A stretch of 64,000 bases of DNA, taken from positions 5,756,615 through 5,820,614 of the forward strand of contig JAJLRJ010000006.1 in assembly GCA_024195265.1 (NCBI GenBank). The letters run 5' to 3'. This DNA comes from Dendrophyllia cribrosa (lineage: Eukaryota > Cnidaria > Anthozoa > Scleractinia > Dendrophylliidae). Below the pieces are notes generated by a model that did not search any database, was not told the origin of the DNA, and saw nothing but the letters and a program-made list of their open reading frames with translations. This document shows positions 12,873-51,367 of this stretch, piece by piece; the first letter of the stretch is position 1; each line of letters opens with the position of its first letter. Position numbers and translations under genes: made by a program.

Positions 12873-12917
12873 AGTTGAATTGACTCGTACATTACCGTAC
12901 AGAATGTCACATGATGC

Positions 12918-12923
12918 AATAAA
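12918..12923 (+). promoter_or_regulatory. Polyadenylation signal of copy B
   Basis: AATAAA lies 46 bases past the stop codon, at the same offset as in copy A. Confidence 0.7.
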
Positions 12924-15607: not shown

Positions 15608-15681
15608 ATGGAAAACTACCCAATGGTTCTCTTCGCACTGGGGGTCTTTGCCGCATCATTTACAACTGATTCTGAAGGAAG
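15608..15681 (+). pseudogene. Orphan signal-peptide exon (unit 2)
   Basis: Copy of the 5215-5284 exon with a four-base GGAA duplication just before the donor (GAAGGAAG|GTAC). The first 20 codons are nearly identical. No downstream exon was found. Confidence 0.35.
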
Positions 15682-20026: not shown

Positions 20027-22090
20027 CAACATCCGGGTATTTCATCCCGTATGTCATTTTGCCGCCACAAATCTGAACGCTCGCTAATTTATCACCGTTC
20101 CTATTTTCATTTTCGCGCGCTCTCTTGCCGTTCTCTAGTGGCCGTCTTATGTAAAGGCACAAACACACACATAAAAAGGATTGGAATTGAGGTTTTCGTA
20201 TTTCACACTTTTAATTATCACTTTTATCCACGATATACAAGAATGGAAGTTGTTATCTCAAAAATTGGGGTCAACAATTCACTGAGGAGGCCGAGAGGTA
20301 CTGAGACGAGTTACGACAAAAATAAACTTGGAGTTAGTTGATTGGACGGGACTGTAAGCAGGAAAATATTCCCGCACTGTTAACACAGCCTTTGTGGTTA
20401 CCTTGAGCATAAGTAAGTGCAAGACTATGAGTATTAGTCATAAGAGTTGATGATCCATAGAACCTTTGTTTGTTGAGTGACTGACAACTTAACCGCAAAT
20501 TCACAAAAGCGCTTGTGTTTCCAAGTTTATTTTCTCGTAGTCTTTCTCGTATTGACCGTGAATGGCGCAAAATCCTCCAAAACTTGCGCCAAGCCGTACG
20601 ACAAGATGATGGTTTGTAACCTGATGTGTAACCTCCTGCAGGATTCGGGCGCGAACGACGCCATTAAAATGCTGCAAGCGAGACTGGAAAATCTTATTGC
20701 AGTGGTCAACAGGCCTTCCCCTACAAAGCCACCAGGTAAACTCTTACATGTATCCTCATCAAGGATTTCAACTTAGTGACGTCTATTTTATAAACAACAA
20801 GAGGCCCGGCAAGCTAACCGGGAAAACATACGCGCGCGCCATTTTAAAGCTGTCGGTTTCTCTTTAGCGCGTTTTGCGTCTCACTCAACAAGAAGGTCTG
20901 TTGTTTGAAATTTTATCCATTTTTTCACATTTACTCATCAGCGCATAACCGGAATTTTTATCTCGTTTACAGCACTTCCTGCCTCTTCATGCAAGGAACA
21001 GTATGAAAAACACAGGTGAGTTCTTAGATGTAGCATGGTAAAATCCAGTGATCAGCGAGAGGAAAGACTCTTATAGAGAAAGATACTGATTTCAAAAATT
21101 ATTCCCCCGTTTTTGTGTAAAACTGCCAGAAATCTTTGAAAAAGGGACGAAAAATATATCGTAATCTTGTCGAATTTACGTGCGCCATTTTGTCTTTCAA
21201 AGTTCCACCAAAAACCAAGTGTACACGCTGAAGTTTGGTTCACAAAAGATTCCTGTTTACTGTCACATGGGAAACTTTGGATGCGGAGATGGAGGATGGA
21301 CGCTGGCTATGAAGATTAACGGCGCAAAGGTAAGCAACTGTCATTGCAAACCTAAGTTATTCACATAGTTTATAGCTAACCCTCTTTTGTTGTTTATATT
21401 TCAGAAAACTTTCCATTATAACTCTGGGTTTTGGAGCAACAAAAATGCCTATAATCTTCCTGGAGGTAAGACTGGGTTTGACGCTCAAGAGACCAAACTG
21501 CCGACTTATTGGAACACTCCTTTCTCAAAGATCTGTCTCGGTATGAAGATCGGCCAGCAAATCAAGTTCATTGTCATCAAGAAACAGGCCAGCTCTCTAC
21601 ACTCACTCATCGCTGACGGGAAATACCGCGCAACCTCATTGGGTCGTAACACGTTGAAGAAGCTGATTGGTTCACAGGCCTCCTTGCAGACCAGTTGTAA
21701 CAAAGAAAGGGTTCAATGCCGTTTGTACCTACAGTAGTGCTCCTTCCAAGGCAAGAATCGGTATTCTTGGCAACAATGAAAATAATTGCGTTTCCTGTGA
21801 CTCCAGAATTGGATTTGGAACAGCAGGAAGAATGGATGATTCCAACACGTGTGGAGATAGTGCTATAAAGGGACATACATCGGACAATGGAGCGAAGAAC
21901 ATCAAAGCCATGGGATACATCTTGGTTCAGTAGAGTTGAACTGACTCGGCGTACATCACTGTACAAAAGATCATATGATACACTAAAAAATTCATTCAAC
22001 TATTTGTTGATTAATACTGACTCAAATAATCTTTTGACTGACAAACTGAATTACTTGAATGACCAACCAATGGAATGAATGCTAGACCAA
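20027..22090. repeat. Tandem segmental duplication, unit 3 (partial, diverged)
   Basis: The third copy keeps the upstream region, all four exons and a short 3' flank, then passes into degenerate CTGA/CCAA-rich sequence and unrelated repeats. It is visibly more diverged than units 1 and 2 are from each other. Its intron 2 is only 187 bp, against 600 bp in unit 1, because about 400 bp of intronic sequence present in the other copies is absent. Confidence 0.85.
20509..21933 (+). pseudogene. Decayed third copy of the fibrinogen-like gene (copy C)
   Basis: Exon equivalents: about 20509-20735, 20973-21015, 21203-21329 and 21405-21933. Three lesions are visible. The start codon is destroyed (AAAATGCGC in copies A and B reads AAAAGCGC here). 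One extra base at about 21708-21716 (AAAGAAAGGG against AGAGAGGGG) shifts the last exon by +1. The AATAAA after the stop reads ACTAAA. After the shift, the second frame continues to the same KAMGYILVQ end and carries about 14 residues absent from A and B (SAIKGHTSDNGA), so it descends from a longer allele. The exon 3 acceptor is also weaker (TTTCAAAG). Assembly or sequencing error could explain one lesion but hardly all three. Confidence 0.8.
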
Positions 22091-22639: not shown

Positions 22640-23455
22640 ATTTTACTCCCAGCGTCAATTATGGAGGCATGTAGTGTAGTTCTAACTTTTGATTCCGTTG
22701 ACTAAATCCTATGGTGTGACCACTCAAATGAAACCTCTTCAGCAGTACTTTTGCATGGTACCATTTGTTCTAACTTTTGAGTCTGTTGATGAAATCCTAT
22801 GGTGTGACCATTCAAATGAAACCTCTTCAGCAGTACTTTTGCGTGGTACCATTTGTTCTAACTTTTGAGTCTGTTGATGAAATCCTATGGTGTCACCATT
22901 CAAATGAAACCTCTTCAGCAGTACTTTTGCATGGTACCATTTGTTCTAACTTTTGAGTCTGTTGATGAAATCCTATGGTGTGACCATTCAAATGAAACCT
23001 CTTCAGCAGTACTTTTGCGTGGTAACATTTGTTCTAACTTTTGAGTCTGTTGATGAATCCTATGGTGTGACCATTCAAATGAAACCTCTTCAGCAGTACT
23101 TTTGCATGGTACCATTTGTTCTAACTTTTGAGTCTGTTGATGAAATCCTATGGTGTGACCATTCAAATGAAACCTCTTCAGCAGTACTTTTACATGGTAC
23201 CATTTGTTCTAACTTTTGAGTCTGTTGATGAAATCCTATGGTGTGACCATTCAAATGAAACCTCTTCAGCAGTACTTTTGCATGGTACCATTTGTTCTAA
23301 CTTTTGAGTCTGTTGATGAAATCCTATGGTGTGACCATTCAAATGAAACCTCTTCAGCAGTACTTTTGCATGGCACCGTTTGTTTTTCAAAATTTTATAA
23401 AATGAAATTTGGTAATTTTCTTGAATTTTGATATTTCGGAGTCTTGGAAGTTAAA
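22640..23455. repeat. Dispersed repeat carrying about eight 88-bp tandem units
   Basis: Bounded by GTCAATTATGGAG at the left and CTTGGAAGTTAA at the right, it encloses about eight near-identical 88-bp units (for example TTCTAAC at 22768 and 22856), one with a single-base deletion. The same outer borders with one unit only occur at about 51797-51985 and 55195-55393. Unit number therefore varies between copies of one repeat family. In-frame peptides here are artefacts of the repeat. Confidence 0.9.
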
Positions 23456-24044: not shown

Positions 24045-27000
24045 CTGCGATGTCATTTTCTTTCCTAAAAACCTGAGGTCAGCCAAAGGAATAACAGATG
24101 GCCTGTAAACAGGAGTAAAAAAAAGTTATCAAAAATCTTTTTTGAAAACTTTTTTTTAATTTGAACTCCAAAATATGACCATTCAAATGAAAGCAACTGA
24201 GCAGTACTTTCCTGTGGTGCTGTTTATTATGCTGTACAAAGTGGTTGTAACTTTTAAATCTGTAGATGAAATCCTAAAGTGTGACCATTCAAATGAAAGC
24301 TATTGAGCAGTACTTTCCTGTGGTGCTGTTTATTATGTTGTACAAGGTGGTTCTAACTTTTAAGTCTGTAGATGAAATCCTGAAGTGTGACCATTCAAAT
24401 GAAAGCTATTGATCAGTATTTTCCTGTGGTGCTGTTTATAATGTTGTACAAGGTGGTTCTAATTTTTGAGTCTGCGGATGAACTCCAAAGTGTGACCATT
24501 CAAATGAAAGCTTTTGAGCAGTATTTTCCTGTGGTGCTGTTTATTATGTTGTACAAGGTGGTTCTAATTTTGAGTCTGCGGATGAACTCCAAAGTGTGAC
24601 CATTCAAATGAAAGCTATTAAGAAGGACTTTGCTGTGGTGCTGCTTATAATGCTGTACAAGGTTGTTACAACATTTGGGTCTTAGGATGAAATGATACAG
24701 TGTGACCATTCAAATGAAAGCTATGGAGCATTTCTTTGCTGTGGTGATGTTTATAATGCTGTACAAAATGGTTCTAACTTACATGTAAGTGTCTATGAAT
24801 GAAATGCTACAGTATGACCATTCAAAACACGGCTCTTCAGTAGTGCTATCCTGTGGTACTCCTTGTTTTTCTGCATGCACTTATAAAATGAAAATTTCAA
24901 TTTTACTTGAGTTCTGATTTTGGCTGCTTTAGGGGTGTAAAGAGAATTAACATTTTGAACCTGACCCCACCCACCTGCCATGAGCACACTGGAAAGGTAA
25001 CCGACACTTGGACAGACGCCCAATCAGCTCCTGGCACTCACTTACACCAAGAGTCTCCCCAAACTTAACAGCACCTGTACACAAACAAAACAAATGGGAA
25101 TTAATGGTTTACTACCACGTCGCACTAAATTTTTTCAGGTTCTGTTTTTTCCGATTTTTGCGGATTTTTTTACGATCCACCAAAAAAAGTTCCTACCAAA
25201 AAAAATTTAAACATTTTCTCAGCAAAAATTTAACTCCACTGTCGAAATAATGTGCAAACATAACTTTTACACGTAATGATAATTCATCTAGTGGTACAGC
25301 ATAGTTATTGCTGTTTCATTGCCAAAGCAATCAGCCACGCTAGGGCAAGATGTAACAGCCCATTTCCGAGTTGCTTTAAGCCTCCTTTTCAAACCGAGGA
25401 CAAGTGCAAAACCATTCATATCAGACAACGAGCAGTCTTTCTTTCCCAGCTTAGTCCGTCGAGCGAGAAACGAAAAAAACATTAGCGAGCGGATAATGGC
25501 CGCGCGAAACTGGGGGCGAAGCAGGCGACTGCTCGTTATCTAATTCATATGGATATAAGTTTTACTTGCATGTGAAAGAAAACTTATTTTCATATGAATG
25601 GTTTTGCACTTGGCCTCGGTTTGAAAAGGAGGCTAAGAGCAACTCGGAAATGGGCTATTGAAATAGAGTAACACCTTATTTCGATTACATGTACGAAAAT
25701 GTTGTAGTTCCAATTGAACCCGACATCCTGCAAATCGCAAAAATTAATTCCCAGCAAGAAAAAATTAGTATTTCCCAATCGCAAAAATTAGTTCCCGCAA
25801 AACACAAAAAAATCGCCAATCTGCGAAATAAAACTCCCGCAAAAATTTAGTACCACACGGAAGATAATTAAAAACCGATATTTGTCCGCTGACAAATATA
25901 CTTCGAGAAGCGAACAATCCACTTTCTGAAAACTGTGAGCTTCAAGGAACAGATAATGTCCAAGGAGAAAAGTCCGTACAGATTTTTGAAACCAAATGGA
26001 GGCTATTGTGTTTATTATCCTTCAAAGGCTTGTCTGTCAAAATAAAATTCACGTTAGCGTTCAAAATCAGTTTTATTCAATTTAGCAATATATTTAAGAA
26101 AGAACACAACAACGCAATTTTGAAAACTGAGGAATATCACTTGAGGAATATTTAACAGTTATTGTGCTCCTTCATTCACTCCATGTCGAGCGGTTGAACT
26201 TTGAACCAGCTTTCATTCAGTTTCGCCAAGAAACACTGCGACACAACGCTATAATTTCGCTCCTGTTTTGTCCAATCGTGTAATCAATAATTTTTTCCTT
26301 TATTTTCTTCCTTGTTTTCTGTTTCTCTTTCCGTTTTTTTATTTAATAATTCGCGCATTTTTCTCCCAAAAACACGAAATTGCAGGCAGCGGTCATTTTC
26401 ACTTTCTTTCAAAATGTGAAATTTACCTCCATCGCTGGATATACGTCATGTAGACCAAACGTATATCGAGAGCTTTATGACCATATTTGGGCAGTGTATC
26501 AATTTGTTGAATTATAACATTGGATATTCCCCTGTTTGGGCTGCATTACATGACATGTGTAGACCAATCGTGCGCACAAAAAATATTTGATGGAGTTATA
26601 AAGTTAGATAGTGTCCCTGATAAGTATATCACTTGTGGTAACACAAGAAGTCTTAAAAGTGTTTAAAGGCTAAACAAAAATTTAGCTGTATGTTTTGCTC
26701 AGAGTCCCACAATTTCGGACTTCTCTTCTTGTACTCAACAAAGCTACGTATTTGTTGTTGTTTGTTTTGTTAAACTTATTGGACTTATATTTTCCAAAAA
26801 AAAAAAAAGCAATTTAGTTGTATTTTGTATTTTAGTTGTATTTTGATGTGTGGCACTAAATTATTGCGGAAGTTTAACATTGCAGTTCCATGGGCGAATT
26901 TGTTGTGTTTTGCGGAAACTAATTTTTGATATTGGGAAAGACTTTTTTTTTCTTGCTGGGAACTAATTTTTGCGATTCAGTGCAGGAACTCGCGTTCAAT

Positions 27001-33300: not shown

Positions 33301-36300
33301 ACACACACATCCACACATTGAATAAGGGATTTATTATTTGACCAAAAACTAATTCCTTTTAGCACAGCTTTTGTGTTTAAACTGGGATACTGATGTGTAA
33401 TAGGACAATCTACTGTGTGATACAATTGGATATTTTGTGTGTTTTTCTTATAAGTTAAAATGATGTGAAAGTCAAATTTTTACGGTATTTGAAAATCATA
33501 TAGATGTAGATGTGAACTACAGATGAAACATGAGTGATAGTTGAAAAAGCAACCTGAAAACAAATTCAGGCCTGAATTCTTTCTTTCAGGTTTCTTTTTC
33601 AACTGCTTAAGTTGATAGCACACTGCAAGGATCACAACATTTTTCTGTTTATCACCAAAGTTTAATAATAAGATTAAGGAGATCACTACAGTTAATCCTT
33701 TAACTCCCAAGAGTGCCAAAATTCAAAATCAAAATCCCAAATTTCATTATTCAATGTACCTTCTTGCGAGAGAATGCCCACTATAAACTTATCATCTAAC
33801 TGTCGCAATACTCTCATGCCTGCCAGCATGTCTTTGGTGAAACGATATGGGTGGATCACATTATGAACTGAGATCTGATTCTTAATACACCCGCCTGGTT
33901 TGTTGGCCATCAGAATGTCCTTCAAAGAGAAAAACAACAGCACTTTCATTAAGCTCGGGCGAAACAGCAGCCAAATGAGAGTTGACAAGAATTCAATCCT
34001 AGAGTGCACTTTGGGGGGAGCGGGAATGGTGAAGTGGCAAGAACACTTGCCTCCCACCAATGTGGCCCAGGTTTGACTCCCGGACTCCATGTCATGTGTG
34101 AGTTGAGTTTGTTGCTCTGAGGGTTTTTTCTCTGGGGATTCTCACTGGTTTTACCTCCCTCATCAAAAAACAATCACGCTGGGATTTTTTTGGGCGATTT
34201 CCGGCCACGGTTAAACTACTTTTTACGTTTTGATGCTCTGACCATGGAACTTTGCTACAATATAACTCTCGCCATTTTCTAAAAAGTTACCATTTTTGAT
34301 TTTCAAATTTTAGTATTTTTGGCGGGAAAATGACGTCACAAGTTTGGCGGCAAAACTTTTATTTTGTATTATGGGATATACAATGGCGATTTCTGAAAGA
34401 GCGTGCAACAAGGATTTCAAATCTGAAAACAAAATTAAAATATGTTGATCCAATAAAAAGTTATAGGGTGTTGAATATTCAATTTGTGCTATTTTTAGTA
34501 ACAAAAATGGCGGAAAGTTCAAATTCAACGCCCCATAACTTCTAACTGGATCAACGTATTTTAGATTTTTTTTCAGATTTAAAATCCTTGTTGCACGCTC
34601 TTTCAGAAATCGCCGTCTATGTCCCATAATACAAAATAAAAATGTTGCCGCCAAACTTGTGACGTCATTTTCCCGCCAAAAATACAAATTGAAAACGGTA
34701 ACTTTTTAGAAAATGGCGAGAGTTATATTGTGGCAAAGTTCCATGGTCAGAGCATCAAAACATAAAAAGTAGTTTAACCGTGGCCGGAAATCGCCCAAAA
34801 AAAAACCGGCGTGAATATTTCTAAATTCCAGTTCAGTCTCGACTCTGAGGACAACAGGTTTGTCAGTTGCAAGACTGATACAGCAAGTGTCACCCTCATT
34901 AAGCAATGCTGATTTATGTTTTGTTTACATTACAGATGACAACAGAATAAAGGATAAGTAGTCAGACAGAAAAAAAGAGTTTGAACTTTCACTGTTTTTA
35001 GTGTACATCCAAGCATGTGCAAACTCTTTAAGAAAACATAGAATTCAGTTATAGCGTATAAGTGTCTTAAATTTTGTATACCCTCATCTTGTTGACCCGA
35101 GTTCATTTGTGAGACAGATCTGATCCACATACATATTTCTATGTCCAATGAGATGGTTTTAAATATATGACTTGCAGTTATGACACTAATCTCACCTTTC
35201 CCGGTGCATTAAACACAGGATTCTGCCAATTGTCAAGCATTTCTGCCACACTTTTGTGTGATTCACTGTTGAACAGATTCTGTTCATAGGCTTTCAGGGT
35301 GTCAGCATCTGTCCACTTACAGAGCTTCTCCTCTGCTCCTTCAATTTCCTGGTGCTCCTGGTACATTGCAGCCAACTGTGACATGTCTGAAAAAAAAAAT
35401 ACATGTAAAAGTTAGTTTTTTCTTTAAAGTGTACATGACTTGTACAGATGTACATGTACATGTAAATGTTGGGCACGTGAACCTAAAGTACTGTACAATG
35501 TAAATGAACTCATTATGGTTCATTCTCAAACAATGATTGCCCTGAGTGTATTTAACAAGAAGTTAAAAGAAGTACTTCCTTAGGGACAAATTTATGTCAA
35601 TTATAAATTACCTTTAGGATAGACAATTCTGTTTCCATCATTACAGTCAGATGTTTGATGTCTTCGATTTTCTCTTGGAAGCCATGGAGTGCAGGAAAAT
35701 GACAAATGAGAGGCAACTGGGTGTGGCACATGCTTGGGGTGGTCATTTCTGACCTCAGTACCTTCAGTTACAGTCACTTCAGTGCAATCGTCATCCATAA
35801 CATGGACTTCATTTGGTGGTTCAAAGGAAGAGTGTCCAGTTCGGGAATTAATAAAGAGATTTCTTCCAAGCGATGCATCAAATGTGCAGTACCATTCCCT
35901 GTTCAAAGAGCATTCTCTCTCATTGGTGTCACTCTTTTCATCTCTATATAACTTGGATCCTACAATGGATGTTTTGGAGCACTGACTTGACTGCTGTACA
36001 GACATTGCTTTGTTTGTAGTTTCACTTTCTCTCTGTGAAAAACACAAAGGCTCTGTGTACTTGTCTGTGATACCTTCTGGCTTGGTGTTATTTAAGTTTG
36101 AAACTGCTTCAGAATCAACAGTGTTTGCCTCCAAATGCTGCTTGAACTTCGACAAGCACACCCGGCAAACAGAATCACAAGTGGCTGATTGGTTTGAAGC
36201 TAAAGAAACAGTTGAGTTGCAGGTATCCCCAAGTGACACAGTCACCCCAGGGATATAATCATTGCTATTGGTACAACTGTTGCTCATGACTGGATACATT

Positions 36301-38645
36301 GATGTTCCAGCATTGTCGCCCGGATCAATAGTCGATGCCTTATTACTGATACTATCATCAAATGGTTTTTGTGAAGCTTGACCACAGCAAGCAACACTTT
36401 GTGCATTATGTTGACTATTCTTAACATCAGTGTACTGTTCTGCAAAATCTCTGTTGTACCTGGCTATTCTCTTTTCCCCACAGTTTCCCTTCAAAGTGAT
36501 ATGCCTCCTATTCTTTGCTGCACGTCCTGGACCTAATGCAGAAGTTTCCTTATTAGCCTGAGGTCTCTTCCTCGTATACATCCCCTGTAGTGTTATGGGG
36601 CAAGGAGAAGTGAATGTTGGCATTGATTTAGTTCTTGATTTGTCAACCACTGTGCTGGATGCTCCAGAATTTGTTGTCTTTTCAACAGAGGCCTTAGTAA
36701 AAGAACTGTTTACCATGGTAAGAACTTTTTCATGATCTGATCTGCAAAGTTTATCTATGCCAAGATTTTTAGTCTGCAAATCCTTCTTCTTGTCTAAACA
36801 TACTGTTGAATTGCATGGTAATCTATTTTGAATAAAAGCATCAGAATAAAATGTATTGTTGTTGCTGTTCCTGTTTGAAAATCCATTTAAAAGATTTCTC
36901 TGCATACTGCTGCAACTCTCAGCACCTAACTGACAAGAAGTCTTCTGCAAGTCCAAAACACAATGACTGCCGACTGACCTCATGGAGAGAAGATCGACAG
37001 AACTACAATCTACCTTGCTTGAACATTTTCCTAAAGCTTTAACAGAGTTTAATGCAGTGACTGTGTTGCTGTCAGCTACGTGAGACCATTGGCATGTTGT
37101 CCTGGCGCTTACTTGGCTTCCATGGTTTCCACCAGAGGATTTATTTTCATTGTCATCAGCACAAGATGAGAGCCCTTTGTCTACATTTGCCACATCTAAA
37201 CAATATGAGGATTCTCTTACAGGACATGAGACAGCCTTTGAAACAGAATTAGAATCTGAACTTGGATACTCAGATATTAAAGAATCATTTCTGTTTGTAT
37301 CATTGATGTTATTGTCTTTGTGCTTCTCGTCAGAAAGAGGTGAAACTGATTGTCCTTTTTTAAGACAAGTTGCCTTATACCTACTTCCCCTTTCTCCTGT
37401 TTCAACCTTTCTTGACCTGAAAACAGTTGAAGAATGTAAACTTTTCTTTACATTACTGGTCTCAATCTCTCTTCTGTACTCAAAAGCCTCAAGACTTGTG
37501 CAACATGACCTCTCCACATGGCTGTCAGCATCTCCTCCAGAATCTGGTTGTTCGGAGTAGGAAATCAGATTATGTTTAATTAGAAAGTCATTTACACATC
37601 TCTCTACACAATAAAGAACGCTGTCCCAGTCTTGAAATTCAATCATAGTCTTTGCCGGCTCAAGACAAATATCATATTCAGTGACAAGACACTCAATATT
37701 AAGAAAAAATATACCATGTTTGTCAACAGTCTTCACATTTTGGGGGCTTGTAGCTTTAGTATGATAGCTTTCTGTTCCAGCGCTGTCTACTTCAGAAATC
37801 GGCAATTTTCTCAAAAGTTCTGATTTTCCAAGAATACTATTAAGGAGTTTGTGAATTTTTGTCTTCAGCAGGAGACGGCCGTTGACAAACAGAAACTGCA
37901 AACTCCTACTATGATGAGTGTCAGTTGAAATACATCCTGACACTTTGAAATCTTTGTGTTGAAATTGCACTTGTTGTAGTCCCTTGGATCTGTGGTTACC
38001 AAACAGCTGAGAGAATGTGGAGACAGAAGACTTGCAAACGTGAGTTTGGAGACATTTTGCTCCTGTTGCATCATTGATCAACAAGAATGCAGTCTTGGGA
38101 TGAATGAGAGCTATGGATGCAATTCTGTGTCGAACCCGTTCAAAGTCGAGGGTTTCAGAGATCGATTTTCGTCTCACAGGAAGGTTTGCAAAAATGTTGT
38201 GAATGGTGACAGTCGTTCCAGAACTTGTTCTTGGAAATCTAGATTCGGTGAGTTCCAAAACTTGCGAATTTCGAAAGAGTTTGCAGTAAGTTTGATACGA
38301 AGACCTGTGGCGAGTAACTATTTCAAGCACGTCGCAGATCTCGCGTAAGCTTGCCAGAGCTTCTCCTCTAAATCCGTAGAAAGTCAGCTGCTCAAGGTCT
38401 TTGAGGACGTGGCATTTACTGCTCGAGTATCTCTCGCCAACAAGCTTCAGATCTTCAAAAGCGATTCCATTGCCATTATCAGAGACTTGGATTTTAAAAT
38501 TCGGCAGGTCTATTCGCACTGTGATGCTGGAAGCACCGGAGTCTATGCTGTTCAAAACAAGTTCTTCCACGCATTGCGTCAAGTTAGTGATGGCGACTCC
38601 TGACCTCAAGTGAGAACGCACTTCTTCCAGCAAGGGACGGATCAT
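24045..38645 (-). CDS. MLH3: DNA mismatch repair protein Mlh3
   Basis: Nine exons in order: 38645-35612, 35386-35196, 33919-33760, 30148-30074, 29564-29272, 28463-28440, 27790-27712, 25074-24975 and 24102-24045. All junctions are GT-AG and phases close exactly (4014 nt, 1338 codons). The N-terminal GHKL ATPase shows EELVLN (E28, N32), DNGNGI (D56) and GFRGEALASL (91-100). A long variable linker follows. The C-terminal endonuclease domain carries VHNVIHPYRFTKDML, the metal-binding DQHAAHERVRLE, SQACHGAVKF and [20 protein letters not shown], so all catalytic motifs are intact. Mlh3 pairs with Mlh1; the heterodimer nicks DNA in meiotic crossover resolution and assists mismatch repair in the nucleus. 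Introns, especially 30149-33759 and 25075-27711, are packed with repeats. The last exon is uncertain. The gene is head to head with MRPL33. Confidence 0.95.
24170..24850. repeat. Diverged tandem array, unit about 105 bp, in the last MLH3 introns
   Basis: About six to seven units sharing GTGACCATTCAAATGAAAGC with the 88-bp array, plus an extra block TTATAATGCTGTACAAGGTGG. It lies between MLH3 exons 24975-25074 and 24045-24102. The same long-unit form recurs at 62240-62900. Confidence 0.85.
25110..27280. repeat. MLH3 intron filled with degenerate GCAAAAATTAGT-type repeats
   Basis: Blocks at about 25110-25240, 25690-25855 and 26850-27270 share words such as GCAAAAATTAGTTCCC and their complements, in opposite orientations. 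They appear to be decayed copies of one AT-rich element. At 26420-26470 a TTTACCTCCATCGCTGGAT word is shared with about 41615-41670. No exon lies in this interval. Confidence 0.5.
25354..25658. mobile_element. Foldback element with 65-bp inverted arms
   Basis: The left arm (25354-25421, with CCATTTCCGAGTTGC and TTTTCAAACCGAGG) is complemented by 25592-25658. Arms also carry an inner inverted pair (ACGAGCAGTC and GACTGCTCGT). It resembles a non-autonomous DNA transposon sitting in an MLH3 intron. Open frames on both strands are by-products of the palindrome. Confidence 0.75.
28588..28725 (+). mobile_element. tRNA-derived SINE copy
   Basis: A tRNA-like head (GGCGTGGTTGCGAGAGC, then GCTCAGGTTGAATACTGG resembling a Pol III B box) is followed by the GTGGGTTGAGTTGG and GTTGGTTCTC core typical of a widespread marine-invertebrate SINE group. 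Related to the copy at 34019-34165. Confidence 0.55.
30320..30372. repeat. Poly-C and (CA)n simple repeat
   Basis: A run of about 18 C followed by alternating CA in the MLH3 intron. Such tracts are prone to assembly error. Confidence 0.85.
30424..31262. repeat. Nested long inverted repeat with GGACCCC minisatellite arms
   Basis: The outer arms (about 30424-30617 and 31100-31262) are complementary and each carries a 15-16-bp minisatellite built on CTGGACCCCCAT. The inner arms (30618-30738 and 30776-30892) form a near-perfect hairpin of about 120 bp with a short loop. The WTPSGPP-type peptide frames on both strands come from the minisatellite and are not genes. It lies in the MLH3 intron between exons 33760 and 30148. 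Confidence 0.85.
32050..32420 (+). repeat. Composite repeat with internal tRNA-like segment (copy 1)
   Basis: Contains GCATTTGGAGTCTTTAATGC, then a tRNA-like stretch (32172-32250: TCTAGTGGTTTGG, an A-box-like word, and GGTTCGAATCACG, a B-box-like word) followed by a poly-T run, then a tail ending GGAGCCTTTGATTGA. The same order occurs reversed at 55675-56070. The T run could act as a Pol III terminator. There is no clean tRNA fold, so it is not called as a tRNA gene. Confidence 0.6.
33694..33756 (-). repeat. Truncated end of the 88-bp repeat family, beside an MLH3 exon
   Basis: The minus strand reads as the right border of the family (AATTTGGGATTTTGATT, then CTCTTGGGAGTT). It begins four bases beyond the donor of exon 33760-33919, so the repeat sits almost on the splice site. 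Confidence 0.7.
34019..34165 (+). mobile_element. tRNA-derived SINE copy in MLH3 intron
   Basis: The head GGGAATGGTGAAGTGGC, then CCAGGTTTGACTCCCGG (B-box-like), leads to the TGTGTGAGTTGAGTTTG core and a CTCTGGGGATTCTCACTGG block, the layout of a tRNA SINE with a conserved central core. It ends at the edge of the hairpin element at 34175. Confidence 0.65.
34175..34813. mobile_element. 639-bp long-hairpin element, AAT flanks
   Basis: Two arms of about 290 bp are near-complementary from CACGCTGGGA at the left to CCGGCGTG at the right, with a short spacer around 34490. Both arms contain TGACGTCAC. AAT on both sides may be a 3-bp target duplication. It lies in the MLH3 intron between exons 33919 and 35196, so MLH3 pre-mRNA would contain a long double-stranded stem. 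Confidence 0.88.
35612..38645 (-). CDS. MLH3: MLH3 large N-terminal exon (ATPase and linker)
   Basis: One 3034-nt exon encodes the first 1011 residues, from ATG to the donor AAAG|GTAATTT. It carries the entire ATPase and transducer region (to about residue 350) and the Ser/Asn-rich linker. A single giant N-terminal coding exon is also how vertebrate MLH3 is built, as I recall, so the structure appears old. A motif GREWYCTFD-like block near the exon end (REWYCTFDASLGRNLFINSR) stands out in the linker as possibly conserved. Confidence 0.93.
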
Positions 38646-38914
38646 TCCAAGTAAAAAAATGTAATTGTTTCCTTTTACACAAATGAAGCCGTTTTCCTGG
38701 TCCTAATTGCCGCATTTTCGTCTTTGAAAAAGGAAAATTAGGAATGTTTTCTGTTTCGAGGGAAGCGCCATATTGAACTTTCGCGGGAAATATCCCACTA
38801 ACCTTTGCGGTATTCACCCCACAAAAAAACAAGACTTTCCGTGGCTCTTTACATGACGTAAAAAAGGTCGCCATCTTAGTTTTTGCAGAGAACGCACACG
38901 TTTTCCAAGCAAAA
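38646..38914. promoter_or_regulatory. Shared divergent promoter of MLH3 and MRPL33
   Basis: The MLH3 ATG (38645, minus strand) and the end of MRPL33 noncoding exon 1 (38914, plus strand) are 269 bases apart, so both genes must start within this interval. It contains GCGGGAAA, GGTATTC and AAGATGG-type (YY1-like) words on one strand or the other, but I cannot assign a transcription start. No TATA box is evident. Confidence 0.6.
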
Positions 38915-42179: not shown

Positions 42180-42185
42180 TAATAA
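42180..42185. repeat. Left target-site duplication TAATAA
   Basis: TAATAA immediately precedes the left terminal repeat and recurs at 50974-50979 immediately after the right one. The sequence is AT-simple, so the six-base length could include chance matches. Confidence 0.7.
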
Positions 42186-42594
42186 GGGACGGACCATTAT
42201 TTTTCTGGAGGGGGGGTATGAGAAATATTGAAAAAAATTGTTTGCAGAGCCTGAAAAGACAAAATAAAATGTTTGCAAACGCAATATGTATAAAAAAAAA
42301 AGTTTGCAAAAGAGCCACACAAACGAAGTTAACAGCTATTCATGAAAAAAAAATTAGTTCGAAAACTTAAATTTAAAATCTTAACGTGAGACCTCCAGAT
42401 TGAAAGTACAAGAATATACTCAGCTGGGTTATTTGGTAAATCAAAGGAATTAAATATCAACAATTTTTTACTTCTCTAACTTATCAAATTTCTGTCAAAA
42501 GTTGATTCAAGAAATTTGATAAAACTCAGCTACACTCATCATTAGGTAATTTCAAAAAAATATGTGACTAAACTGTGTAGCACATATAAACATA

Positions 42595-42752
42595 TACTGC
42601 AGTTGTTAAGTTTAAATAGTTAATGCGCCAGAAACTAAAAAGTTCCATACGTTTCGAGGCTACTGCCCCTTCTTCAGTGGAAAAGAAAATTCTGTGTGGC
42701 AGTCATTTTAGTTTCTGGCGCATTAAATATTTAAACTTAACAATTGCAGTAT
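42595..42752. mobile_element. Nested MITE inside the transposon's left flank
   Basis: Inverted arms of about 46 bp (TTAAGTTTAAATAGTTAATG, then GCGCCAGAAACTAAAA and complement) surround about 65 bp. Confidence 0.8.
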
Positions 42753-42839
42753 ATTATACTCATCATTGCTATTTACTACCCCTTTCAATAAAATGGAGAC
42801 TCATGAAATTTAAATCTCAACTAACGGTTGCGTTTTTTC

Positions 42840-42960
42840 CTGCCGTCAATCAAACAAAGTCCACAAAATCCACCAATCACTGTGTACGAATGCGACCTTT
42901 TGACCCTGTTGAACTAAGCTACTTTGTTTCTTAAGCTTCTGCTACAGTGATTGACGGCAG
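42840..42960. mobile_element. Small inverted-repeat element
   Basis: CTGCCGTCAATCA at 42840-42852 is exactly complemented at 42948-42960, with a weaker inner AAACAAAGT and ACTTTGTTT pairing. Confidence 0.6.
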
Positions 42961-43419
42961 TGTAAAACTCAACCATTATTGAAAGGCGCAGTAAATGCAT
43001 GATGTTTCATAAACAAGAGAATAATCCCTTGTCAGAAGCCAGTCACTTACATGGAAAAACACTGAACATTGTTTAATAACAGCTTAATCTCCAAGATTCT
43101 GTAATACAAACAAGAACTCTCTATTTATTCATACAAACAAGGACTGTATTTTTGTATAGTTTCACAAATGATTCCTTTGTTTGTGGCAGGAATAAAGTTT
43201 ATCATCTGGTAAAAATTAAGGTTGGATCACTATGTTCCCACTTGCTGCACCAGCTTACATTCTTAATAGAAAAGCATCAATCCTTTACCAATTAATGTTC
43301 ATGCGATGACTAATAACTAAAACAACAACACTTGTGTTCCACAATCCCTAGTGGTTTACCTGTGATCAGATAATAATTAATCATAATGTATTTTTATCAT
43401 CATAAATCAGCAATTAACT

Positions 43420-43527
43420 ATTTGTTATGAAAAAAGTGCCCAATATTGTCTCGATGTACAGGATTTTTAGGGAAAATCCCTTAACAGTTTGTAGTCGGTT
43501 TGACTGAGCACTTTTTTCATAACAAAT
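43420..43527. mobile_element. 108-bp MITE in the transposon
   Basis: Perfect 20-bp ends (ATTTGTTATGAAAAAAGTGC and complement). Just outside, similar sequence (TTTTTATCAT, then ATAAATCAGCA) occurs on both sides, possibly an extended target duplication. Confidence 0.75.
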
Positions 43528-43684
43528 ATTTTTTATCATAAATCAGCACCTATTATTAAATGAAAACAGATTAGGAGATGCATAAGATAAGTCAAGTCAA
43601 GTCAAGGTGAATAGTTAACTATTATAGAGCGAAAGCACTATTCACTTTTGTGGTATATACTAATATATTATAAACTGTTTAAAG

Positions 43685-45280
43685 TTAAATGTATTCCACA
43701 TTATCCTCATGTAATGGATCAATAGCAGAAAACTCATCAGCAGACGAGTCACTGTCTGTTTCTGAACTGTCTGTGCCTATTTCAGATTGGTTATCAAATA
43801 TATCCCATTTTTCTTCAAAGTTTTGATGAAGGGATGTACATTCTTTTGCAGCCATACCCTCACTAACATCTGAAGTAACATATATTTCTTCAGAGTTTGG
43901 TTTGCACTGAGTGCTTGCTTGGAGGGAAACACTTTCCTCTGAAACCATATCCTCATTAATAACTGAGCTGTCATCTTCCCCCATGGTGTTTGGCTTGCAT
44001 TGAGTGCTTGCTTGGAGGGAAACACTTTCCTTTGAAACCATATCCTCATTAATGACTGAACTATCATCTTCCCCCATGGTGTTTGGCTTGCACTGAGTGC
44101 TTGCTTGGAGGGAAACACTTTCCTCTGAAACCATATCCTCATTGATAACTGAACTACCATCTTCCCCCATGGTGTTTGCCTTGCATTGACTGTTTACTTG
44201 GGCCTCATCAACTGTGTCTGTTTTGGCAAAATAGGACACCAGTTTCTGTCCTTTTTGCCCAATGCTTTTGGTTGAACTGCTGTTCAATGATGATTCTGTC
44301 TGCTTTAATTTCTTTCTTTTCTCTTTCCGTGCATTTTTCTTTCGTTTTCTTTCAGCAATGACTTTCACTGTCTCTTCCATATGGTACTTGCTTACAACAA
44401 TTGCTTTGAGTGTGGATATTCTAGCAAGGTCTGTTGCCACTCTGTTTTGAAGTTCAGTGATCTGTGGTAAAACTTCAGAATACCATTGGTGTGCACCTTT
44501 AAACGATTCTTTCATTTTCATACCACTGTCTGTGGTTTCAGACAAGCCATCCTCTGCCATTTTTAACACTCTGTTCACACTCTCTTCTAATTCTTTGACA
44601 CCATCATAGTAAAAAAGTATATCCTTTGCAGCTGATCCAGAAAAGGTTTTTGTGTCTGCTGATAGAGTGGCAGCCATAGGATAATTCTTTTTTAACTGAT
44701 TCCACATCCAAGGTACTGACTTTTGTTTGATGTATACAGATTCCTTTGCCAAATTTACATCACAGGGATGGATAGACAACAGCACTGAAATTCTTCGTTC
44801 CCTCTCTTTCCTGGCCCAGTCTTCGAGCAAACGGATGTTATTAAAGTCACGGTCCCTTTCATAGCACATGGCAAGAATAAACGAATTGTTTAAAGTCTGT
44901 TTCAGCGAGTTTGGGTTCGAGTACCACAGTTTCGAGTAGCGTTTTTCCAACGGTTTTCGCGATATTTGAAGAATATTTCCTCCTGTTGAGTTGAAAAAGT
45001 TCAAAGGCACATGAACGTTTACCCTGCCCTCCACTTCTTTTGTCTTTGGGGGAATGCTTTGGTCGCTGGGCTTTGACATGCTGGTTTCCAGTTGCCAGAG
45101 TTTGAAGAGCCTTCGCAATCGCTGTATTTGAGTTTTAGACATCCCAAAACCAGTAAGAGTATCATCTGAAACATCCGTGATGTCACGCACTCTTTCCACC
45201 CCTTCGCTTACGAATTTATCTTTAAACATTTGCAAATTTGCATCACAAAGAAATTTGTCGAAAGCAAGCGTGTCCGCCAT
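43685..45280 (-). CDS. Transposon accessory protein: SAM-like domain, basic region, 31-aa repeats
   Basis: Single exon, 531 aa, from an ATG in context AAAATGGCGG. Residues about 8-62 look like a SAM domain (FVSEGVERVRDITDVSDD, then TLTGFGMSKTQIQRLRRLF). A middle region has conserved-looking WYSNPNSLKQTL and VPWMWNQLKKNYP. Residues 311-327 are a dense Lys/Arg block (likely nuclear signal) followed by GQKLVSYFAK (344-353), reminiscent of a PCNA-binding peptide but lacking the leading Gln. Residues 365-462 hold just over three copies of a 31-aa unit (CKPNTMGEDDSSVINEDMVS core), and the tail is acidic. It is divergently transcribed from the transposase-like unit, 218 bp between ATGs. Role unknown; a DNA-binding or target-choice partner of the transposase is inference. 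A GTG-based shadow frame at 43777-44160 follows the repeats and is not a gene. Confidence 0.75.
   Translation of the reverse strand: MADTLAFDKFLCDANLQMFKDKFVSEGVERVRDITDVSDDTLTGFGMSKTQIQRLRRLFKLWQLETSMSKPSDQSIPPKTKEVEGRVNVHVPLNFFNSTGGNILQISRKPLEKRYSKLWYSNPNSLKQTLNNSFILAMCYERDRDFNNIRLLEDWARKERERRISVLLSIHPCDVNLAKESVYIKQKSVPWMWNQLKKNYPMAATLSADTKTFSGSAAKDILFYYDGVKELEESVNRVLKMAEDGLSETTDSGMKMKESFKGAHQWYSEVLPQITELQNRVATDLARISTLKAIVVSKYHMEETVKVIAERKRKKNARKEKRKKLKQTESSLNSSSTKSIGQKGQKLVSYFAKTDTVDEAQVNSQCKANTMGEDGSSVINEDMVSEESVSLQASTQCKPNTMGEDDSSVINEDMVSKESVSLQASTQCKPNTMGEDDSSVINEDMVSEESVSLQASTQCKPNSEEIYVTSDVSEGMAAKECTSLHQNFEEKWDIFDNQSEIGTDSSETDSDSSADEFSAIDPLHEDNVEYI
43895..44187 (-). repeat. 93-bp in-frame tandem repeat within the SAM-like gene
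   Basis: Three full and one partial units at a 93-bp spacing (the GAGTGCTTGCTTGGAGGGAA block recurs near 43909, 44002 and 44095). Period and phase preserve the reading frame. Confidence 0.9.
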
Positions 45281-45498
45281 TTTGAAAATGCATGTTCAGT
45301 GAACAGCGGTTTTTCTTTCAAATAGTCACCAGTCCTTTTGTTAGTTTGAGATTATCAAAGTGGTTATTCCTGATTTCCGTAGTCGAGTAGGTCAGTCGAG
45401 TATCAGTTTTATTAAAGCTCGACCTCGTGTCACTCGTGCATCGAACGTTTTCGCTCTTCTCGCTACAGTTTCTCCTCGTATTTGCCCAATATTTCAAC
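45281..45498. promoter_or_regulatory. Divergent promoter of the transposon genes
   Basis: 218 bases separate the two opposing start codons. Both transcription units must be driven from here. No TATA box stands out. Confidence 0.55.
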
Positions 45499-48400
45499 AT
45501 GGCGAGCACAAACGAGTGGAATGAACGCAGGAGAGATCTGAGGAATCTTCGAGTAATTGACGACAGCGAAAAATTTCACAAAAAGAATGGAGTTCATATC
45601 GAGCGATCATTGAATGTTCAGTCTGTCATTAGCTGCCAAGCGTTTATTGAGATGAAAATTCTGGAAGATCAAGAAAAAAACAGAAAATCAGCCTCTGCCT
45701 TCACAGCCCTGTCATCATTGCTGGACGAACTGCTGATTAGAAAGGTTATGGCATTTGACGAGTGCTTCAAATACTACACATCTCACATCAGAGATATAAC
45801 ACAACTTTCCGAGTCAGTAATGCGCAACGCCAAGCAGACGTTCAAAGAGAAGCTGCTTGGACATGCTGGCCTCCCTGTTATTTACTTAACAACAGGTGTG
45901 AGAGCATTTGTTATGCTGATGGAGAACGGTGTAAACCAGGAAATTTGCAACAGCTTTGAAGAGGTGTTGGAATCTATTGTTGAGGAACTACAGCCTACAA
46001 TTCTTAATGAAAAACTGAAGTCGTTTACCCCAGTCTTTGAACACCTGATGTCCTTAACTTCAACAAATAAGGACAGGTACTTACTCCTGTATATTCTCAG
46101 CAACATTTTCAGCAAAACGGGACTAAAGGAGTATCTAGGCCTGAATCCGGATTTCGTGTCAAGTGTTCAAGGACAGGTTGAAGACATGCTGTGGTCTGTC
46201 CCAGATAAGATGACTGAATTCGAAAATGAAGCAGCTACTCATGTAGAAGAAACAGTTTTGAAACTGAGAAATGCCCTTGAGAAAAAGTCAGAATCCCTTG
46301 CCAAGAAAAGGAAACGCCTTGATGAAAACATTATCAGTGATTATGAAAGTGATATTGCAAACAAGAGGCAGAAACTTGAGACATTACAGGAGGATTCTAC
46401 CAGCCTAAGGAAGCAGTATGTTTATAGAAAGTTTAGAGCGTGGAAATCTGATTTGTGGAATCAAAAGGGAAAGAAAAGGGGGTCTTACCTAATTGACAGA
46501 GGCGCGGAAAATGCCATCTACAATGTACTTGCAGAGCATTCAAAAGCCCACAGGCGCCGGCATGGTGAAGAAGGAACAGCGTACTTGGATGAACCTTCTC
46601 AGCGAATCCAAAGCAGGGAGATGCTCCGAATTGCCAACAAGTTTTTAAAGAAAAACAACACGAGGTTGATAAAGTCAAAAGAAACTGTTAGAGCATTTGG
46701 AAAACCTCGAAACAAGCGCTCAGTACAAGCTAAACAACACAGGGGCAAAAGTCTGTGGTCCTTCACCAGAAGTCAGAAGAAGGAATGCAATCGACATGTA
46801 AATGTTCATTACAACAGAGCTTTCATAAAGAACTACACAAGGCTCGCTTTTGCAAAGAATTCAAAACATAGAGGTCGTGTGTTGCGTTTAGCAGTCGATG
46901 ACAAATGCTACCTCCGGTGTGGAACCTCTGAAGGATTCTCTCGACCTTTGCACAGGCCGTTGCAGTTGGCTAAGGAAGAGTTAAAGTTTGAGCTTCCCTC
47001 CTCTGACTATCCAAAGAAGACAGGATATGTGAGCCCTGGTGTCGTTTTGATGGTGAATGAACAAAGTGAGACAGAATACAATGGGCGAGACAAGTATGTC
47101 CCCGAAGATGTGACAGTTTCCGTGAACTGTAAACCCAAAGTTTACTATCCATCACATGCTACAAATTGGGCCAATGACCTGTACTCCTCAAGGCTTCTAT
47201 TTAGAGAAGAACACGAACTTCCAAGCAACTTCTCTGAAGAGCATGGAAAAGTGTTTCTGGAACCAACAGAAGCTGCCAGCCATCTCATCTTTATACGGGA
47301 CTCCTTGTTACAGTTTGAACTTATGACAATCGAGGCTGATTTTCTACGCATTTCAGATGGAAGTGATCATAGAGCAAGAGAGGAACTGAGGCTGGATGTG
47401 CTGAAAGGAAGGATAGAATCAGTAACAAATGTCCTCACAAACCTTGATACAAGGGAAGATAACATTTGCTCTACAGTTGTCAGCCAGCTTCATGAGTTAA
47501 AGAGTCAAGTAGAAGATCTGCAAAAAATAGTTTAAGTTTCATGTCCAGGTGAGGAGTCAAAGCAACAGTTACTGTCAGAATATGGCTCTCTGAAGTCTGA
47601 AGCTAGACGAGTGAGACTTCAGTTAGAATCTCTGAATCTTCCAAAGCACCGTGCAATTGAAATTCAAACTTCCGATGCTGGTCCCGGGGTGAACTCCAAA
47701 GAGAAAGTGACACAAATTCGCCTTGCAGAAGCATTCCAGATTCATAGTTTGGATTTACAGGCTAGACTACACTATGCTCCCGGGGACTCAAGAGTTCACA
47801 TTGCAGAAAAGGTGATGAGATCACTGAATGAACATGCTGGGTCAGGACATACTATTCCAATTCCGTCAGTTCCACTCACCAGTATAGTTTCACCTGGCGA
47901 AATTCTGATCATGAAAGACGACGAACTGAACGATGTGATGACCAGAAAGGAACAAGACGAAGCATATCAATGTGCCAAATCCGTTGCCTCGTTGTATGAC
48001 GGAAAGCCTTGCATGGGAACCTCTATACATGCAAGAGTTCCAAACGACTGTTCATGGGATGGCTTTTTCTTTGACCATGAATTCCTTGTAAAGTGTAGCA
48101 TGTCTTCGTCAGCTAAGGCATTAAATGCATGCGCAGGAAGTGCATATTTCAAATACCAGCAAACATTTTTCTCCGAGCATTATCGAGTTTATGATGGCGG
48201 AGTGGAAGCAATTCGAGATGCTTGTGAGAAAAAGTGTCACTTCCATGCCTCTGTGGAAAACACAGATCGACTCAACGCTGATGGGTGGAGTGATCTTCCA
48301 GTGCAAAGAGTGAATGCCCCAGTTCCTGATTACAATGAAGAATCATCTGATTTTCACTACTGTTCATCCGAGCAGGTAGAGTCTGGAAACTTCATGGAAA

Positions 48401-49875
48401 AGTTTTCTCTTAGTAAAGCCAAAGTAATGAGTAAAACGCGAGAAGTGGATGACTACTGTCCCCGTACACAGCTTCATAAACTAATCAAAGATTGTGGGAA
48501 ACCTCAACTTTCATATAACACCACTACCCATGATGACGGAAGTCAAACTCTTACACCTGTCGACAGCAACGAAACAATGACGAAAGTAACTGATGGTGTA
48601 GATGCGCTTGTTATTGAATTTGTGGGGGAAGACTTGAGGGATGAAGTCTTGAAAGAAGCCAAGAAACAAGTTGAACTTGAAATTAAGGCAACAATGAAAA
48701 AAACCCAGAAAAAATCTGCCAAAGAATCTGCAGCAGCAAAACATGTTGATGACATTGACTGGGAACACCTGGCAAAATATGGCGGTTTAACAGATCTTTC
48801 TATTGCAGAGCTAAACTTGTATCTTACAGAATGTTGTGGTATGTCAGTTGAAGATGCAAAGAAAAAAGGATTCAACAAAAGGAAGAAAGTAAAACTAATC
48901 AAAGAGAACATTATGTGCGGTCACATACCAAATACAGGTGTCTCTCTGAAAATGACAGTCCAACGCACAAAGAGCCACACCAACAACAGTTTGCCGCCTG
49001 TTCCACCTTGGGCAGGTAGCACAGTGTACAACGGAAACGTTGTAAGACTGCAAAACACATGCCCAATAGACAATTGGCTTACAATGTTTCACTTCATTTG
49101 CACCCTTTATCCCGCGATAGTGCAGGCTGAGAAGGATTTGTTTTACCAGCGTATTATGGGTGTACACAGATATTTTCAGGCTGGGGAATTTGTGCTTGGT
49201 AAAATGCATTGGTTGGAGATGTTCCCGCATAAAGTTGACCTTACACAGCCTGTCATTGACATATTTGGGAGTGAATACGACTTTTTCATTTCAGCAATGG
49301 CTAATGTACTTGCCACAACCTACAACACCGTTTGCAGTGAGAGCACTTGCCCAAAGCCTTCAATTTCATCAAAGTCTTCTGAAATAATCCTTAGTGATGC
49401 CAAAGCGAACACACCTGAAAATAGCTTTAAGATGTCTGTCTGCAATTGGCTCCACAAGACAACCCCTTCTCCTTGCCTTCGGAAAAAGAAGCGCAGTAGC
49501 TCACTGTGCCAGGGCTCAAGAACAGAGTCCAACCGGTTCTTCATTCAAGGAATGCCGCTTGTTTTACCATGTAACGTTGACATTCTGTCAAGGAATGGGC
49601 GAGTGTTGGAGGTCGGTCATCTTCCTGACGACATGATTTTGAAAGCTAATGGGACATTGACTACGTACAAGTTGTTTGGAGTAACGTATGGCAATGGCAA
49701 TCATTTCAAATCAGCAATGTGCCTACCATCACCATTGGTACCACAGGCCGGGTGGTATGAGTACGATGGGCTATGGGAGCATCGTCAACGAGGGTCTGGC
49801 CTCAAGTATTGTGGGAAAAAGCCTGCAACTCCCTTGGCATATTGCCTGTCATATGCCCTCTATGTGCGTCAGTAG
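45499..49875 (+). CDS. DDE-transposase-like protein fused to peptidase-like domain, in-frame stop
   Basis: From ATG 45499 (AACATGGCG context) the frame is open to a TAA at 47533 (678 codons), then continues in the same frame without further stops to TAG at 49873, 1458 codons in all counting the internal TAA. The first part holds coiled-coil and Lys/Arg-rich stretches and a candidate first catalytic Asp in LAVDDKCYLRCGTSEG (codons 467-468). Beyond the TAA come TSDAGPGVNSKEKV (Asp codon 726) and APGDSRVHIAEKVMRSLNE (Glu codon 770), the spacing and wording of an RNase-H-fold D-D-E site. The C-terminus (about 1180-1458) has QNTCPIDNWLTMF (Cys 1188), GNGNHFKSAM (His 1402) and GWYEYDGL, resembling a USP/OTU-like cysteine peptidase. 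Either TAA readthrough makes a full protein, or the copy is disabled by one point mutation. Confidence 0.7.
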
Positions 49876-50578
49876 CTTTGTAGCAGTACTGTGAAGGTAT
49901 TAAAAGCCCATGCCCAAGAAAAATGAACTAACCAGGTGGCTAATCGGTGTCCGCGCTTTGCTATGGTTTCTGTAGCATGAAATGACTATAGATGCATGCT
50001 AGTCTATCACAGGGTTACCCCCAGTATTTCTGTGAAGTTTACCTAACGGTAACTGGTACCCATTTATACACCTGAGTGAAGAGAGACAATGTGGAGTAAA
50101 GTTTCCTGTCTATAAAGGACAAAACCCATTTATACACCTGGGTGGAGAGAGACAATATGGAATAAAGTATCTTGTCTAAGGACACAACCCATTTATACAC
50201 CTTGGTGGAGAAAGACAATGTGGAGTGAAGTTTCTTGTCTAAGGACACAACCCATGTATACACCTGGGTGGAGAGAGACAATATGGAGTAAAGTTTCTTG
50301 TCTATTAAGGACACAACCCATTTATACAATGTGGAGTGAAGTTGCTCAATTTATCAAAGGAACCAACACGACGCTAGAGACCAGGATTGAACAAACGACT
50401 TTTCGCTCACTACCACTATTCCCGAGCCTCAAAATATATACATCTCCACAGTAGTACTGCGTACTTCTATCTAAAATAGAATGGTAAGTGATGTATAAAG
50501 AAACCACAACAAATATAAGTGACTACTGCATAAATTTATTTACAGAAACTATTTAGAAAAATAGGCAATTTAAATGCA
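49876..50578. repeat. Repeat-rich right flank with 56-60-bp tandem units
   Basis: At about 50060-50340, four to five units built on CCATTTATACACCTGGGTGG, then GACAATGTGGAGTAAAG and TTTCTTGTCTA follow one another. Surrounding words (CTATCACAGGGTTACCC, GACCAGGATTGAACAAACGA) resemble the conserved tail of a dispersed marine-invertebrate retroelement. No gene. Confidence 0.7.
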
Positions 50579-50724
50579 TTTATACCATGCCATAGAAAAT
50601 ACAACCAATCAGAATACAGGAAAGCCGTTGTTCGACCGTATTACACCCAACCTTCCCATCGTGCGCTGCACGTATGTCGCATTGATGGTGCTTCCTACTG
50701 TATTTTCTACGGCATGGTATAAAA
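50579..50724. mobile_element. Nested MITE in the transposon's right flank
   Basis: ATACCATGCCATAGAAAATA at the left is complemented at 50699-50724 with one mismatch, enclosing about 95 bp. Confidence 0.75.
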
Positions 50725-51367
50725 TAGTTATGCAACACTTTCTCGTGATATGCCACTCGAAAGCGTTACAAGACCAGTATATAGCACTGTTAGTGACTTG
50801 GAAAAAGTACCTTAATATTTTTTTTGGAACCTTACAAGATCACAATGAAAAAAATTGTTTGCAGGAAGGTTTGTTTTTAAAAAAAATAATTGCAGAGGCG
50901 CATGGATAAAAAAAAAATGTTTGCAGAGGAAAATTTCTCATACCCCCCCTCCAGAAAAATAATGGTCCGTCCCTAATAACAATTAACTAACATGCCCATA
51001 TTATGCAGTTGGGTTACCTGTGGCACAATTAAAAACAAGTAGCCGGTTACGGCTTCACAAGCGGGCCGTTTGGTCCAGTTTCAATACTTAGTGGACGGTG
51101 GACTAGTTGAAATAAAGCCAATTTTGTTTAGAAAACGAGAAACTTAAAAAAAAACGTCTTATTAGCGCGACATAAACATGTATACATTGTGTGAAATGAG
51201 ACTGAATGTTGTAATGCATAAGTGGGTATGTTGCCAAGTCACAGAGGAAAACAAAAACTTGCACTGAAGCTGGCACATTGCCACAACTTAAAAGAAATGT
51301 CCAATTGAACCTTTACAATGAAGTGGTAACCAAGTTCTGGTTTAGCAGGTGCCGGTATAATTGGCAC

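Follow-up and report, generated by a model that had tools for sequence, protein, structure and literature searches.

A candidate new superfamily of eukaryotic DNA transposons with a divergent SAM-domain gene in the scleractinian Dendrophyllia cribrosa

What kind of mobile element occupies positions 42186..50973 of the window analyzed here, a 64,000-nucleotide stretch of the scleractinian Dendrophyllia cribrosa (assembly GCA_024195265.1, contig JAJLRJ010000006.1, positions 5,756,615 to 5,820,614 of the forward strand)? A preliminary description, made from the DNA letters alone, had proposed an undescribed transposon with perfect 41-bp terminal inverted repeats (TIRs), TAATAA flanks and two divergent intronless genes, one for a SAM-like protein and the other a very large transposase-like frame. 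The element, hereafter family A, is real, very young and recently spread, and the same genome has five further lineages (B to F), at 26 to 57% protein identity. It is in our judgment likely that family A is an autonomous class II transposon moving by DDE-type cut-and-paste, and that the group A to F is most reasonably regarded as a candidate new superfamily. Behind this reading stand exact ends, a TWA target site, one empty site, numerous dispersed and near-identical copies whose frames are open, a conserved large protein, and a two-gene layout that recurs in diverged lineages.

Ends, target site and copies of family A

The TIRs, the adjoining TAATAA and the limits of the element are as first described (Table 1). 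Searching the element's own genome (627 Mb, 22 contigs) with the whole sequence, we scored 17 of 2,637 candidates at first look, so that the copy count is a lower bound; all 17 scored matches were full-length, the window copy included. These copies were all fetched and compared (L009 to L025): 13 of the other copies have the same length as that of the window and differ from it by 1 to 9 substitutions, and the remaining three differ by 1 to 5 bases in length. The recent mobility and the additional copies that had been predicted are thereby borne out. The first 31 bp of the family A end gave 427 genome matches at up to 3 mismatches and the reversed control none, which, together with the 17 full-length matches, rules out a chance pairing of the ends. 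Among the 100 end matches listed we counted 20 exact end pairs, 8,783 to 8,793 bp apart, in keeping with the inverted pairs about 8 to 9 kb apart that had been anticipated. Beyond the 17 fetched copies, five element-length pairs were recognized by eye in the end-pattern search (C1:13417180, C4:14591497, C16:17790110, C20:14400967 and C20:35579980) and bring family A to at least 22 copies of this length; the large gene is degraded at C1:13417180 and C20:35579980. Four copies have three variants in common, which suggests more than one source copy.

Every one of the 17 copies carries a 3-bp duplication of TWA on both sides, TTA in 10 and TAA in 7. Since 3 bp are common to all of them, we reject a six-base duplication and read the TAATAA that adjoins the window copy on both sides as a TAA duplication of 3 bp that is extended by chance. 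Segmental duplication as the origin of the copies was likewise rejected, as their 200-bp flanks differ, the exceptions being short stretches common to L011 and L024 and a tandem repeat around L014. This last copy lies inside the tandem repeat, and a neighboring unit in its left flank (L006) aligns across the joined flanks without the insert, with 202 of 243 columns identical and one base of TTA missing from the unit. It was the sole match (1 of 17) when the 17 joined flanks were compared with the fetched sequence. Inverted repeats at exact common boundaries, a duplication of fixed length and one empty site place family A among class II TIR elements.

Both genes of family A are intronless, as proposed, and the SAM-like protein was correctly recognized, with a Pfam SAM_TNK domain (Table 1). 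The very large frame is also present, but in the window copy it is split by a stop at 47533-47535 into two open reading frames (ORFs) in one frame, 45427-47535 and 47611-49875; this stop is private to the window copy, and the 1,458-aa frame is complete in the 16 others. A search of the genome with the 1,458-aa protein gave 36 matches (32 of 772 candidates scored), 20 of them over residues 1-1458 and 19 of these free of stops, the stop-bearing one being the window copy; beyond these came one 99% match containing a stop, along with several fragments and some diverged matches. Family A is apparently autonomous.

Related lineages and subterminal repeats

Ends of the form GGGRC...CATTA with TWA duplications are found in lineages B, D and E; for C and F, the fetched DNA yielded no ends. 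Lineage B is represented by two copies (L026 with L030, and L027 with L031) that are 98.7% alike over 7.6 kb, have GGGGCGGACCATTAG... ends and TTA on both sides, and encode a large protein 41 to 54% identical to that of A, with a stop in L027. Lineage C (L028), matched only for residues 67-682, is 51% identical in the core, and lineage D (L029), a 3,161-bp copy with stops and an internal deletion, has GGGACGGACCATTAT... ends flanked by TTA at either side and a C-terminal piece that is 57% identical. Lineage E (L032 3284-9001 with L035 1-1353) measures 6,970 bp and is flanked on both sides by TAA; its ends read GGGACCGGTCATTATTTATC and by eye agree with A at 16 of the first 20 bases; its large protein is 26% identical to A over 1,068 codons (tblastn E 1e-55), and that of lineage F (L034) is also 26% identical (tblastn E 2e-46). 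The family E ends have 69 genome matches at up to 2 mismatches and none in the control, and by eye we found 7 exact end pairs 6.97 to 7.03 kb apart and 7 further exact pairs spaced by about 2.5 kb, which have the look of deletion derivatives. Family E, too, has probably been recently active, and with A and E the group holds at least two recently active families in one genome. A search with a piece of lineage B (73 of 236 candidates scored) gave 89 matches, which include the copies of family A itself, and further long frames at 23 to 30% identity.

The two-gene layout extends beyond family A. A divergent SAM-protein gene adjoins the large gene in B and C (28 to 38% identity, tblastn) and likewise in E, in which it reads as a gene of two exons, and SAM_TNK scores above the Pfam cut-off in A, in B (just, at 25.4 vs 25) and in E. 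The large gene of lineage B contains several intervals with GT and AG borders that we read by eye as introns (L026 compared with window 45499-49872). Because lineage B seems intron-bearing and family A has no introns, family A seems to have lost introns or to have been rebuilt from a spliced copy, a difference that bears on intron loss in transposon genes. Between lineages, third codon positions of the large gene differ at 0.61 to 0.71 and second positions at 0.28 to 0.52, so that across lineages the large protein is better conserved than its silent sites. The gap between the two kinds of position is wide among A, B and C and narrows in the comparisons A-E and A-F.

In the subterminal DNA of family A, a AAAAAAATTGTTTGCAG-like motif occurs in the same orientation at both ends (200-bp ends compared), in arrays with a 31-bp step (Table 1). 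A periodicity test over the 117 bp inside each of the 150-bp ends, with one copy each for B, D and E, found self-similarity at lag 31 above shuffles in six of eight ends, namely both ends of A, B and E (p 0.0005 to 0.012); summed over the eight ends it reached 3.488, compared with a mean of 2.312 (standard deviation 0.145, maximum 2.837) in 2,000 dinucleotide shuffles. In lineage E the motif repeated at 31-bp steps is by eye a different one, GGGGGGATCA, so that the spacing is kept and the sequence is not.

The large protein, its proposed action and the placement of the group

The best conserved blocks of the large protein are those around D467, D726 and E770, which stand in the order of a DDE triad with 258 residues between the first two and 43 between the last two; the catalytic roles assigned to them are putative. 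When a D2-E profile built from A, B, E and F was compared by hhalign, D726 and E770 fell on an invariant D and E of ISAzo13 transposases (E 0.02, probability 2.4%), residues that we take to be catalytic, and the whole protein aligned at the same place (E 0.12). The real score of 21.3 was equaled or exceeded by 4 of 300 column shuffles, and the reversed profile scored 10.3. The ISAzo13 set, found with an approximate query sequence, came from plasmid records: 141 records had a match, six loci annotated as encoding an ISAzo13 protein were fetched and four proteins were aligned (L036, L037, L040 and L041), with L038 (short) and L039 left out.

From these features we propose as the transposase the 1,458-aa protein, which would bind the ends together with the subterminal repeats, which would lie on one face of the DNA because 31 bp is about three helical turns, and would then cut and join the element to its target with a 3-bp stagger at TWA. 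More tentatively, the SAM-domain partner might oligomerize and help to line up the transposase along the repeats or to bring the two ends together. In the large protein, the C-terminal region common to A, B and D is possibly a cysteine-protease-like domain, a reading made by eye for which Pfam and PDB gave no support; one may speculate that such a protease acts against host control. A SAP-like stretch just before this region is a by-eye lead only.

Several results weigh against this interpretation. No Pfam or NCBIfam transposase model matches the large protein of A or those of E and F, with Pfam matches of the former inspected up to E 10, and the same Pfam library recognizes two bacterial transposases (PF07592 on L036 at E 1.1e-146); PDB sequence searches gave nothing below E 0.09. 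Single-sequence AlphaFold models of the C-terminal and DDE regions had mean confidence scores (pLDDT) of 32.6 and 38.4, too low to be informative, and so no RNase H fold was seen. The hhalign statistics for ISAzo13 are weak, the best column shuffle reached 33.7, and no comparable match was obtained with IS630 (two sequences), IS5 (one) or IS4 (one), comparators made weaker by their small number. Neither a SAM domain nor any other Pfam match was found in the lineage C piece, which stops short of the domain. The codon-position comparison covers the large gene and consists of differences per codon position. Stops occur in the D copy, in the window copy and in at least one of the two B copies, and the 27 substitutions among the 17 family A copies (7 non-coding, 8 synonymous, 11 non-synonymous and 1 stop) make the recent changes look near neutral, as expected of copies so young. 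As to the 31-bp period, the two lineage D ends have none of significance (p 0.59 and 0.10), lag 32 is nearly as high (3.271), and lag 31 was picked after being seen in family A; for this last reason A is not an independent test of the period, and B and E are.

Among the other placements, a very distant relationship to Zator/ISAzo13 fares best, and we consider it doubtful. The register of D726 and E770 with the ISAzo13 residues is suggestive of such a link, and Zator resembles ISAzo13, both giving 3-bp duplications, according to the accessible part of PMC10045372. Yet PF07592, the ISAzo13 model, has no match on the large protein, and the alignment of the two residues is not statistically significant and was made with comparators found by an approximate query.

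The target site raises the case for a divergent member of PIF/Harbinger (PHIS), which we consider unlikely. The preliminary description had drawn in part on a 6-bp flank in arguing that the element fits no superfamily; that part of the argument was wrong, and TWA taken alone fits PIF/Harbinger as characterized in the part of PMC4482050 available, which also lists a TIR shorter than 60 bp starting with G and two ORFs. Against PIF/Harbinger, Pfam gives no transposase match on the large protein or on those of E and F, and the same library recognizes two bacterial transposases. Moreover, the partner protein has a SAM domain and no Myb/SANT match in Pfam, the element is 8.8 kb long against an average of about 4.1 kb in the same available text (PMC4482050), and hhalign found nothing with one IS5-family transposase, a single sequence and hence a weak comparator.

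It is very unlikely that family A is a non-autonomous passenger whose two genes are cargo and whose ends are recognized by the transposase of another element. A nonautonomous derivative with the same ends does exist, namely the 598-bp L042, the sole short element fetched, whose left end is 82% identical over 164 columns, inner piece 76% and right end 31 identical bases, with TTA on one flank and TTG on the other, and the 427 end matches far exceed the 20 element-length pairs among the 100 listed. Against this, related ends and TWA duplications accompany the same pair of genes in A, B and E, at 26 to 54% identity, and the large protein has changed less than its silent sites and carries acidic motifs in the order of a DDE triad. 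Equally improbable is AcademX, which matches in duplication length only (3 or 4 bp) and encodes a nuclease in the accessible account (PMC10045372), whereas Pfam finds no nuclease family in either element protein.

By the features tested, then, the group A to F fits none of the named superfamilies compared here and is best treated as a candidate new one. We found no description of the element in literature searches on a SAM-domain transposon, a new superfamily, the end sequences and the protein motif, with most subscription papers out of reach; the group is apparently undescribed, being set apart here without comparison to Repbase or Dfam. Scans based on the core alignment, each using two short peptide patterns, gave no prokaryotic or viral relatives, and tblastn at E 1e-3 gave none in phages or plasmids. 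In the available portions of PMC9587614 and PMC10045372, the number of eukaryotic superfamilies in Repbase whose transposase is of the DDD/E type is put at 20 or 21. We regard as evenly balanced the stronger proposition that A to F form a new superfamily of eukaryotic DNA transposons. Its defining features would be a large DDE protein that no family model matches, a divergent SAM partner, GGGRC...CATTA ends with 3-bp TWA, and, at both ends, subterminal direct repeats spaced by 31 bp, along which the transposition complex may be assembled by a SAM-driven polymer. If true, this would add a further superfamily with near-identical, open-frame copies that is directly testable in cells, and the recurring SAM partner and 31-bp repeats would offer a concrete model of an accessory protein building a transposition complex.

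Other features of the window and comparison with known systems

The features of the element are collected in Table 1. Near the left end inside the element lie a 49-bp inverted repeat (96%, 42592-42754) and hairpins at 42822-42978 and 43416-43531. Elsewhere in the window, the first 19 kb contain a tandem duplication of about 10.6 kb (four aligned pieces within 1-9579 and 10613-19414, 96.7 to 99.0% identical), with parts of a third copy of the unit at about 20027-21718 (89%), followed by tandem arrays at 22679-23384 (88-bp steps) and 24162-24826. An open frame of 1,033 aa at 35604-38702 on the minus strand, 3.5 kb from the element, has the MutL-type domains HATPase_c_3 and DNA_mis_repair and is probably a host mismatch-repair gene.

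Table 1. Features of the family A element in window coordinates.
Feature	Position	Strand	Remark
Complete transposon (family A), 8,788 bp	42186..50973		17 copies with the same boundaries and differing flanks; one copy has an empty site
Target-site duplication TAA, left copy	42183..42185		TWA in 17/17 copies
Left terminal inverted repeat	42186..42226	+	41 bp, perfect match to right end
Left subterminal array, three AAAAAAATTGTTTGCAG-like direct repeats 31 bp apart	42229..42321	+	Starts 42229, 42260, 42291; periodicity test
Gene for 531-aa SAM-domain protein, divergent to large gene	43685..45280	-	Open in 17/17 copies; counterparts in lineages B, C, E
93-bp (31-aa) tandem repeats, 3' part of SAM gene	43802..44201	-	Repeat family D1
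SAM domain, residues 9-60	45101..45256	-	Pfam SAM_TNK, E 1.2e-9
Transposase-like gene, 1,458 codons	45499..49872	+	Stop at 47533-47535 in window copy
Candidate first catalytic Asp, D467, in DDKxY(L/V)(R/H)xx(T/K)SEG	46897..46899	+	Invariant in A, B, C and in A, E, F; putative role
Candidate second catalytic Asp, D726, in DAGPGV	47674..47676	+	Invariant in A, B, E, F; putative role
Candidate catalytic Glu, E770, in H-x4-D-S-x4-A-E	47806..47808	+	Invariant in A, B, E, F; putative role
Candidate cysteine-protease-like C-terminal region (NTCPIDN...H...YDGL)	48991..49872	+	Common to A, B, D; missing from E and F frames
63-66-bp tandem repeats near right end	50058..50346	+	Repeat families D2, D3
Right subterminal array, three repeats 31 bp apart	50846..50938	+	Starts 50846, 50877, 50908, middle weaker; periodicity test
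Right terminal inverted repeat	50933..50973	-	41 bp, perfect match to left end
Target-site duplication TAA, right copy	50974..50976		TWA in 17/17 copies

Set beside known systems, the element shows both likenesses and differences. With Zator/ISAzo13 it has in common the 3-bp duplication (accessible part of PMC10045372) and, more tentatively, a D2 and E that align in register, separated by 43 residues here and by 42 in ISAzo13, and it departs from them in having no PF07592 match, in the 258 residues between D467 and D726, and in its long N- and C-terminal regions, with 1,458 aa against 244 to 558 aa in the four ISAzo13 proteins aligned. It is like PIF/Harbinger in its 3-bp TWA, its short TIR starting with G and its two genes, and unlike it in having no Pfam transposase match, a SAM in place of a Myb/SANT partner, more than the average length (available text of PMC4482050) and 31-bp subterminal arrays. 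AcademX is alike in its 3- or 4-bp duplication (PMC10045372, in the portion available) and unlike in its nuclease, a family that Pfam did not detect in the element. Kolobok as first described gives TTAA duplications, and KolobokP and KolobokD are DNA transposons that likewise combine a DDD/E transposase with a second activity, which is a nuclease in their case and a SAM protein in the element described here (accessible part of PMC9587614).

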